A stretch of 35,140 nucleotides of DNA from an uncultured Octadecabacter sp. GTDB lineage: Bacteria; Pseudomonadota; Alphaproteobacteria; Rhodobacterales; Rhodobacteraceae. Below, piece by piece: positions 2,793 to 5,312 of this stretch. The stretch's first letter is position 1. The number at the start of each line of letters is the position of its first letter. Under the pieces are notes generated by a model. That model saw nothing but the letters and a program-made list of their open reading frames with translations. It was not told where the DNA came from and made no database searches. The position numbers were made by a program, and so were the translations under genes. The DNA lies in assembly GCA_937969445.1 (NCBI GenBank), contig CALBVZ010000076.1, positions 1 to 35,140 of the forward strand, written 5' to 3'.

Positions 2793-4187
2793 ATGATTCC
2801 AGTTCAAGGTTATTCAGGCAAAACCGTCGCGGTTCTAGGCCTTGGACGATCAGGTCTTGCAACTGTCACGGCACTTCAAGCGGGCGGCGCTGATGTGATC
2901 GTGTGGGACGACAGCCCTGAAGCCGCTGACAAGGCGAATGACGCTGGCGCGACGCTGCGCGATCTGACCAAGCAGGGCGCGTTCAAGGATGTTGCCGCGC
3001 TGATAACATCCCCAGGAATTCCGCATCTATACCCTGAACCGCACCCAGCAATTGCACGCGCCATGACTGAAGGCTGCCCCGTCGACAATGACATCGGTCT
3101 GTTCTTTCGCAGCTTTGCCACGGGCGAGTGGGACAATTTCGAAACCATCCCAAAGGTCATTGCGGTGACTGGGTCCAACGGTAAATCTACGACCTCTGCG
3201 CTGATCCATCACATTCTGGAAGAGGCGGGCCGTCCGACCCAGTTGGCCGGAAACATCGGGCGCGGCGTTCTCGACATTGATGAAGCGCATGACGGCGAAG
3301 TTATCGTGCTCGAACTCAGCTCATACCAAACCGACCTTGCCCGCGCACTCACGCCGGATGTGGCCGTGTTCACCAATCTCTCATCGGATCATTTGGATCG
3401 CCACGCAGGGCATGGCGGTTATTTCGCCGCCAAACGACGCCTGTTCGCAGAAGGCGGGCCTGATCGCGCGGTGATCGGCGTGGATGAACCGGAAGGGAAC
3501 TACATCGTTAACCAACTTTCTGAGGGGCCAACCGATGATCGTGTGATCCGCGTCTCAAGCGGTACCAAGCTTGGCGGGGATGGCTGGAACGTCTTCGCTC
3601 GCAAAGGTTTCCTGAGCGAAACGCGCAAGGGGCGGCAGGTCGCATCAATCGATCTACGCCAAATCGCGGGATTGCCGGGGGCGCATAATCATCAGAATGC
3701 CTGCGCCGCATATGCTGCGTGTCGATCTCTGGGGATTGGACCACGGGTGATTGAGCAAGCCTTGCACAGCTTTAAAGGCCTGCCGCACCGCAGTCAGCTG
3801 ATCGCGCAGCGCGATGGCGTTGCATTTGTGAACGATAGTAAAGCCACCAACGTCGATTCAGCCGCCAAAGCGTTGGCAGCGTTCAGTAAGGTGCGTTGGA
3901 TCTGCGGCGGGTTGGAAAAAGAGGGTGGGCTGGATGCGCTTTTGCCTGCCTCCACAGTTGTCAAAGCCTACGTCATCGGGCGTGAAGCCGCGGCGTTCGC
4001 TATGAAGCTCAAAGGCGTAGACGTGGAAATCTGCGGGGACATGAAATCGGCTGTGACAAAGGCCGCGGCGGATGCGCAATCGGGTGAAACCGTGTTGCTT
4101 GCCCCAGCCGCAGCATCCTTCGATCAATACGATAGCTTTGAGAAACGTGGCGATGATTTTGCGCGCCAAGTTGCTGATATAACTTAG
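2793..4187 (+). CDS. murD: UDP-N-acetylmuramoyl-L-alanine--D-glutamate ligase
   Basis: [53 protein letters not shown] motifs. Confidence 0.96.
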
Positions 4188-4191
4188 AACG

Positions 4192-4935
4192 ATGCTCCGT
4201 TTCGTTGCTCTAGCGATTGCGGCAGTATTTCTAACGGTAATTTCACAACTTGGCGGGATCGCGTTGCTGATCGCGGCCTGTTTTCGGCGCAAGTTTCTTA
4301 CGTTCTTGGTTGTCTATTCGATGCTGTCGATTTCGGCTGTCTGGGTCGCCCCGATGTTTGGGCGCGTCGCGCTTTCATGTACGTCAAGCGGCCCGTTGCA
4401 GATGCGCTCGGTCTTGTTTTGCGCGTTGAATCGCCAATACGTTGTCCCAGAGCTTCAGGCGGTTTTGACTGACTTCGCGGAACAAATGGACGCTGACTTC
4501 GCGGGAACCGAGACACACGTATTAGACGCGAATTTTCCATTTTTCACGGGGTTTCCGTTGCTGCCGCATTTGTCCCATGACGATGGCGAAAAAGTGGACT
4601 TGGCGTTTTACTACCAAGGCAACGATCAGTACCTTCCCGGCGTGACGCGATCCCCGCTTGGGTATTTTGCCTTTGAGGACGGGCCAACTGACTGCCCAGA
4701 CAACAGACTAACGCTGCGCTGGGATATGCCTTGGTTGCAGCGGGTTTGGCCTGACTATCAGCCGGATCATCGCCGCATGACGGCGGCGCTCCGGTTGCTC
4801 ACGCAGGACGACCGCGTGGGTAAGTTATTCATCGAGCCGCACTTGCGCACGCGCTTTGGCGTTTCTAGCGACAAAATCCGATTTCAAGGCTGCCGCGCTG
4901 CACGCCATGACGATCATATTCACGTCCAGCTTTAG
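4192..4935 (+). CDS. Membrane-anchored protein with LAS/MepA-like peptidase signature
   Basis: Two N-terminal hydrophobic segments, then SHDDGEKVDLAF (H-x6-D) and C-terminal DDHIHVQL (H-x-H); starts 4 nt after the murD stop. Confidence 0.65.
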   Translation: MLRFVALAIAAVFLTVISQLGGIALLIAACFRRKFLTFLVVYSMLSISAVWVAPMFGRVALSCTSSGPLQMRSVLFCALNRQYVVPELQAVLTDFAEQMDADFAGTETHVLDANFPFFTGFPLLPHLSHDDGEKVDLAFYYQGNDQYLPGVTRSPLGYFAFEDGPTDCPDNRLTLRWDMPWLQRVWPDYQPDHRRMTAALRLLTQDDRVGKLFIEPHLRTRFGVSSDKIRFQGCRAARHDDHIHVQL

Positions 4936-4956
4936 TACTGCGCATTTTTTAGATTT

Positions 4957-5226
4957 TTAATGTTTCCAAAACCGTTTCGACTTGGGCTTTTGCGCCTTCA
5001 GGTGGTTTTTCAAATCGGTAAATCCACCGATCTTTTCGCCGTCAATGAAGATCAACGGCGTCGTCGTGATACGGTGTTTGTCTTTAAACGCATCCGTTTC
5101 GCGGCGTGTGCGCAGCACGTGTTCTTCAATCTCAAACCCGTTGGCGCGCAACAGGTCGCGTGCCGCAGTGCCGTAGCCGCACGTGTAATTGGGCAAATCC
5201 ATTCGGTGTAGTGTCGCTTTGGGCAT
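4957..5226 (-). CDS. Glutaredoxin-like protein (CGYG active site)
   Basis: 89 aa; YTCGYGTAARDLL, TTPLIFIDGEKIGGFTDL typical of glutaredoxin cis-Pro and GGxxD motifs. Confidence 0.8.
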   Translation of the reverse strand: MPKATLHRMDLPNYTCGYGTAARDLLRANGFEIEEHVLRTRRETDAFKDKHRITTTPLIFIDGEKIGGFTDLKNHLKAQKPKSKRFWKH

Positions 5227-5234
5227 GTTCGCAT

Positions 5235-5278
5235 CCTTTATCGTTGTGCTTGATAAAGGGTGAAACAGGTCGTTTCAC
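5235..5278. repeat. Two adjacent perfect inverted repeats
   Basis: CCTTTATC-N9-GATAAAGG (5235-5259) and GTGAAAC-N5-GTTTCAC (5260-5278). Confidence 0.7.
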
Positions 5279-5312
5279 AAGCCCACGAGAGGTCACATCG
5301 CTGTGCGAAGTG

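Follow-up and report, generated by a model that had tools for sequence, protein, structure and literature searches.

A predicted membrane-anchored peptidase related to the M74 (MepA) family, encoded behind murD in an uncultured Octadecabacter sp.

The stretch of Octadecabacter DNA analysed here (35,140 nucleotides, hereafter the window) carries a gene that probably encodes a membrane-anchored, zinc-dependent peptidase related to family M74, which is predicted to lie in the periplasm, appears to be a mobile accessory and, as we infer, has peptidoglycan or a peptidoglycan precursor as its substrate. The protein probably belongs to a membrane-anchored branch, so far uncatalogued, that is distantly related to M74 (MepA). 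All four annotated homologue records that were checked read "hypothetical protein", and literature searches, with most subscription journals outside their coverage, found no paper describing the family.

The gene, whose ATG start lies 4 nt past the murD stop (4187), is the last in a run on the + strand and is followed after 21 bases by a convergent glutaredoxin gene (PF00462, 4957-5226, - strand), which confirms the position given in the preliminary description. It is not a chance open reading frame, since full-length homologues (33-66% identity) are present in many species and the putative metal-site residues are invariant. Hydropathy places two hydrophobic segments at about residues 1-31 and 34-57, and the full-length model has helices at 2-18, 21-28, and 34-56. 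Helix 1 of the resulting hairpin possesses the conserved residues L14-T15-x3-Q19-x-G21-G22, helix 2 possesses Y42, and the loop between them is basic (R32-R33-K34). The H-x6-D motif is found in the stretch SHDDGEKVDLAF (H129-x6-D136), while H-x-H is found in HDDHIHVQL (H242-x-H244) at the very C-terminus; both motifs and the two hydrophobic segments had been pointed out beforehand, as had the four cysteines of the soluble part, which are C63, C77, C168, and C234, all past residue 57. A fifth cysteine, C30, ends the first hydrophobic stretch.

Table 1. Positions in the window of the peptidase gene, its parts, and its upstream neighbour
Feature	Positions	Strand	Basis or remarks
M74-like LAS peptidase gene (candidate), membrane-anchored	4192..4935	+	247 aa, stop inside coordinates; 80 homologous loci; AF2
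Two-helix membrane hairpin, residues 2-56 (predicted)	4195..4359	+	hydropathy, model, conservation, loop charge
Soluble LAS/M74-like domain, residues 57-247, predicted periplasmic	4360..4932	+	domain-only model, Foldseek
Conserved loop L111-D112-A-N-F115-P116-F117...P125, runs into active site	4522..4566	+	conservation, pLDDT blocks
First metal-site motif H126-L-S-H129-x6-D136 (MepA counterparts H110, H113, D120)	4567..4599	+	
Block K211-L-F213-I-E215-P216-H217-L218...R221 (MepA counterpart RIFVxPxxK)	4822..4854	+	
C234 and second metal-site motif R238-H239-D-D-H242-I-H244 (presumed MepA counterparts H206, H209, H211)	4891..4923	+	
murD, upstream neighbour	2793..4187	+	adjacency specific to this genome

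Judging from structure models, the soluble domain very probably adopts the LAS/M74-like metal-site fold. The AlphaFold2 model of the full-length protein, built with 62 family sequences, reached a pLDDT of 95.9 and a pTM of 0.91, and Foldseek returned five PDB matches below 0.001, all of which were MepA structures (1u10 and 1tzp; best 1.6e-7, probability 1.00). The next matches were weak and comprised hedgehog domains (E about 0.2), VanXYc, and other LAS proteins, with VanXYc and LdcB at E about 2 only and VanY-like structures weak as well. The domain-only model (pLDDT 90.4) again had MepA structures for all of its best matches, with TMq up to 0.58. Moreover, when hhalign was used to compare the family with six canonical M74 proteins (E 2e-6, probability 89.5), H126/H129/D136/H239/H242/H244 fell in register with H159/H162/D169/H255/H258/H260 of the host's own MepA, and all six M74 active-site residues are thus present in the family by alignment position. 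Through an alignment of the host MepA with 1tzp, H126/H129/D136 correspond to H110/H113/D120 of E. coli MepA, while the counterparts of H239/H242/H244 are presumably H206/H209/H211; the ligand roles of the E. coli active-site residues were reportedly described by Marcyjaniak et al. in 2004. The preliminary description had proposed a LAS-type fold resembling VanX/VanY and MepA. The fold is supported by the Foldseek matches, the catalytic residues in register, and their conservation, and it is closer to MepA/M74 than to M15 (VanX/VanY): M15 structures are not the best match and no M15 profile in Pfam matches the protein or family members. Superposed as a whole on MepA, the model fits loosely (rmsd 5-8 A, TMq 0.45-0.58), so that its substrate cleft need not resemble that of MepA.

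At the level of sequence profiles, the full-length protein scored 19.7 bits with PF03411 (M74), below the cut-off of 25, and 19.8 bits with NF006947, below the cut-off of 272. Sub-threshold Pfam M74 matches at E<0.1 were obtained for 41 of 62 family members, and among ten other members scanned singly, one passed the PF03411 cut-off with 26.9 bits. Searches of PDB sequences were uninformative, both by phmmer with the protein (MagC at 0.51) and with the family profile (MepA at 0.93 amid chance matches).

MepA, a penicillin-insensitive murein endopeptidase (MEROPS M74, PF03411, 1u10/1tzp) whose own family is characterised by metal-dependent D-Ala-mDAP endopeptidase activity, and the present family have in common the LAS fold with its six active-site residues, the RIFVxP block of the former resembling the KIFIEP block of the latter, and an extracytoplasmic location, which in the family is a prediction. 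Unlike MepA, the family falls below the Pfam and NCBIfam M74 cut-offs, carries a two-helix hairpin where MepA has a signal peptide, and lacks both the RGG (RGGPM) segment that precedes H-x2-H and the Cys-Pro/C-terminal extension past H-x-H. Both RGGPM and Cys-Pro are invariant in six canonical alphaproteobacterial M74 sequences, while neither was found in the family. In addition, the conserved loops LDxxFPF, RHDDHIH, and GC differ from those of MepA, and the family is accessory and patchy while MepA is near-universal in Rhodobacteraceae. The M15 LAS peptidases (VanX, VanY, VanXYc, and LdcB) share the metal-site logic and some are membrane-bound, but their structures match the family model very weakly. 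The N-terminal signalling domain of hedgehog, the second-best Foldseek group, has the LAS core in common over about 85 aligned residues but belongs to a eukaryotic signalling protein. RgsM of Rhizobiales, described as a putative membrane-anchored peptidoglycan metallopeptidase (PMC6107284), offers a further comparison. The common idea is a membrane-anchored peptidoglycan peptidase in Alphaproteobacteria, but RgsM would differ from the present family in being of the M23/LytM type and not M74.

A scan of GTDB genomes yielded 125 relatives, and 80 loci were retained from these. Homologues from Rhodobacterales, Hyphomicrobiales, and other Alphaproteobacteria are 43-66% identical, a few from other Pseudomonadota 37-41%, and many from Bacteroidota 33-43%. 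Family-specific blocks in the alignment are LDxxFPF, GY, GC, and RHDDHIH, and the residues H126, H129, D131, D136, C234, R238, H239, D240, D241, H242, and H244 are invariant in its 79 rows, with a bias towards the C-terminal stretch, where HDDHIHVQ served as one pattern of the scan. In an unbiased set of 30 sequences found by whole-protein or profile search and not via the C-terminal motif, H126, H129, D136, C234, H239, D240, D241, H242, and H244 remain invariant, while positions I243, V245, and Q246 vary. The motif histidines and aspartate, whose loss among orthologs would have spoken against the original assignment, are therefore kept in both samples.

The N-terminal hairpin bears on both topology and catalysis. 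The loop between the helices carries more positive charge than the N-terminal tail in 70 of 79 members, and under the positive-inside rule the more positive loops lie on the cytoplasmic side; the catalytic domain is thus predicted to face the periplasm, a prediction that the charge pattern supports well. As well, C63 is never seen without C77 (both in 31 rows, C77 alone in 18), a co-occurrence by which disulfides in the soluble domain are plausible and well supported as a prediction. In the full model residues 111-130 have pLDDT values of 90-96, while without the hairpin the mean for residues 117-126 is about 51. This drop suggests, from confidence values and not from coordinates, that the hairpin supports the loop leading into the active site, and catalysis would then take place at the membrane surface. 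A bolder reading, offered tentatively, is that the proteins are LAS peptidases integrated in the membrane and make up a family of their own. The conserved transmembrane hairpin would then be part of the active-site environment, and a lipid-linked or membrane-embedded substrate (e.g., lipid II or a membrane peptide) might be cut at the bilayer surface, as a mobile accessory activity in Bacteroidota and Pseudomonadota.

The family is present in 28 of 298 Rhodobacteraceae genomes sampled (about 9%) and in 7 of 299 genomes of a thinner, phylum-wide sample. Canonical MepA was found in 284 of the same 298 genomes, including 27 of the 28 family carriers, and the host of the window has a normal MepA on another contig. 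Replacement of canonical MepA was rejected, as 27 of 28 carriers keep both. Homologues, all annotated as hypothetical protein, are carried by plasmids of Rhodobacter capsulatus SB 1003, Rhodovulum, Agrobacterium, and Chondrinema. The one from R. capsulatus (RCAP_RS17660, plasmid pRCB133) is 60% identical and belongs to a laboratory strain amenable to gene disruption. In the tree the window protein groups with Cohaesibacter, another Hyphomicrobiales bacterium, Ruegeria, and Pseudooceanicola (support 99/94) and not with a single taxonomic family, a mixture of orders that fits transfer. The GC content of the gene (55.2%, against 55.7% for the window) gives no hint of foreign origin. Collectively, this is probably an accessory gene with a patchy distribution that moves horizontally. 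An origin from phages was rejected, with no match in 50,697 phage records, no PHROG match, and no significant BFVD fold.

Several individual loci were also noticed. The pRCB133 homologue (L133, 4333-5705) overlaps the end of an RNA ligase family gene by 4 nt, and the one on plasmid pAt of Agrobacterium tumefaciens (L135, 1243-6552) is flanked on one side by type I secretion genes and on the other by a gene for a lytic transglycosylase, the sole cell-wall-related neighbour noticed. The chromosome of Pseudooceanicola spongiae carries the same protein at 3.93 Mb and at 0.38 Mb (L002 and L003), each 63.6% identical to the window protein, apparently through recent duplication or as a mobile copy. 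In some of the Bacteroidota loci (L048, L136, L050, L064, L066, and L078), small genes of the DUF1801, AHSA1, and GNAT families lie nearby, a combination that may point to mobile cassettes. Neighbour clustering over 80 loci revealed no operon partner conserved across lineages and no consistent cell-wall gene; the genes immediately upstream of homologues are unrelated metabolic or regulatory genes. At 25 of 74 loci an ORF in the same direction lies no more than 30 nt upstream, presumably about the share that any bacterial gene shows.

As to mechanism, the protein is proposed to be a LAS peptidase that depends on a metal, probably zinc. H129, D136, and H244 would hold the metal, with H126, H239, and H242 around it. 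Zinc centres of LAS proteins consist of two His, one Asp, and water (PMC4102407). The zinc-activated water would attack a peptide bond, helped by H242 and the flanking His, and the bond might belong to nascent peptidoglycan or to a membrane-bound precursor. According to the modelled packing of loop on hairpin, the active site would work at the outer surface of the cytoplasmic membrane, as a patchy accessory function in a host that retains MepA. The endopeptidase activity and zinc dependence of MepA are summarised in PMC6403190, and for the family we infer an endopeptidase rather than a carboxypeptidase.

A possible but rather doubtful alternative is that the enzyme acts as a D,D- or L,D-carboxypeptidase and, in a role like that of membrane-bound VanY, shortens the stem peptides carried by lipid II or by nascent peptidoglycan. 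The predicted membrane-proximal active site and the weak structural matches to VanXYc, LdcB, and VanY-like structures are consistent with such an enzyme, but in fold and in profile the endopeptidase MepA matches best, with the M15 structures a long way behind. Less probable still is an active membrane LAS peptidase whose target is not peptidoglycan but a membrane protein, a lipoprotein, or a foreign peptide near the membrane. That the hairpin is apparently integral to the active-site loop, that the RGG segment of MepA is missing, that cell-wall neighbours are not conserved, and that hosts already own MepA would all suit this target; against it, the closest fold is a murein endopeptidase, and LAS proteins except hedgehog are all enzymes, mostly peptidases (PMC4102407). 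A catalytically dead LAS-fold binding protein, as argued for hedgehog signalling domains, is highly improbable, since the six MepA-equivalent residues are invariant even in the unbiased sample, despite hedgehog being the second-best structural match.

The preliminary description had suggested co-expression with precursor synthesis, and the 4-nt spacing on the same strand would fit an enzyme that acts in that pathway, but such a functional linkage deserves very little credence. Among the loci retrieved with 1.5-6 kb of flanking sequence, no other has murD next to the gene, and homologues lie behind genes for malic enzyme, ThiF, glutamine synthetase, GroEL, Nudix, AHSA1, and other proteins. Homologues (53-63% identity) are present in 5 of 18 relatives from the genus but at sites away from murD; in the closest relative by MurD (97%), it is 63% identical and about 0.9 Mb away. 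All 15 congeners whose murD locus was read (MurD 82-97% identical) are without the gene there. Functional coupling to murD was rejected on this synteny, which shows no conserved association of the gene with murD or with the rest of the dcw cluster. In seven of the 15 congeners, about 30-100 bases are all that separates murD from the HI0933-like gene. In the others this interval holds a match to the glutaredoxin gene (two congeners), an RsmJ-like methyltransferase (three; PF04445 in the one tested), an unrelated ORF (the closest relative), or other sequence (two). The corresponding segment of the window (4188-5312) is a variable gene slot in the genus. As a separate observation, a SpoIIAA-like gene (PF11964, 50.5 bits; 2207-2623, - strand) lies between mraY and murD on the opposite strand. 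The location behind murD looks like a local insertion event without evident functional meaning, an accident of this genome, where read-through driven from murD may express the gene.

The murD adjacency, seen in a single genome, is a warning against inferring pathway membership from it. For the family itself, a conserved and scattered set of "hypothetical" proteins gains a concrete and testable candidate function as a membrane-held relative of MepA, and it would represent a candidate activity in peptidoglycan remodelling that lies beyond the known M74, M15, and M23 sets.
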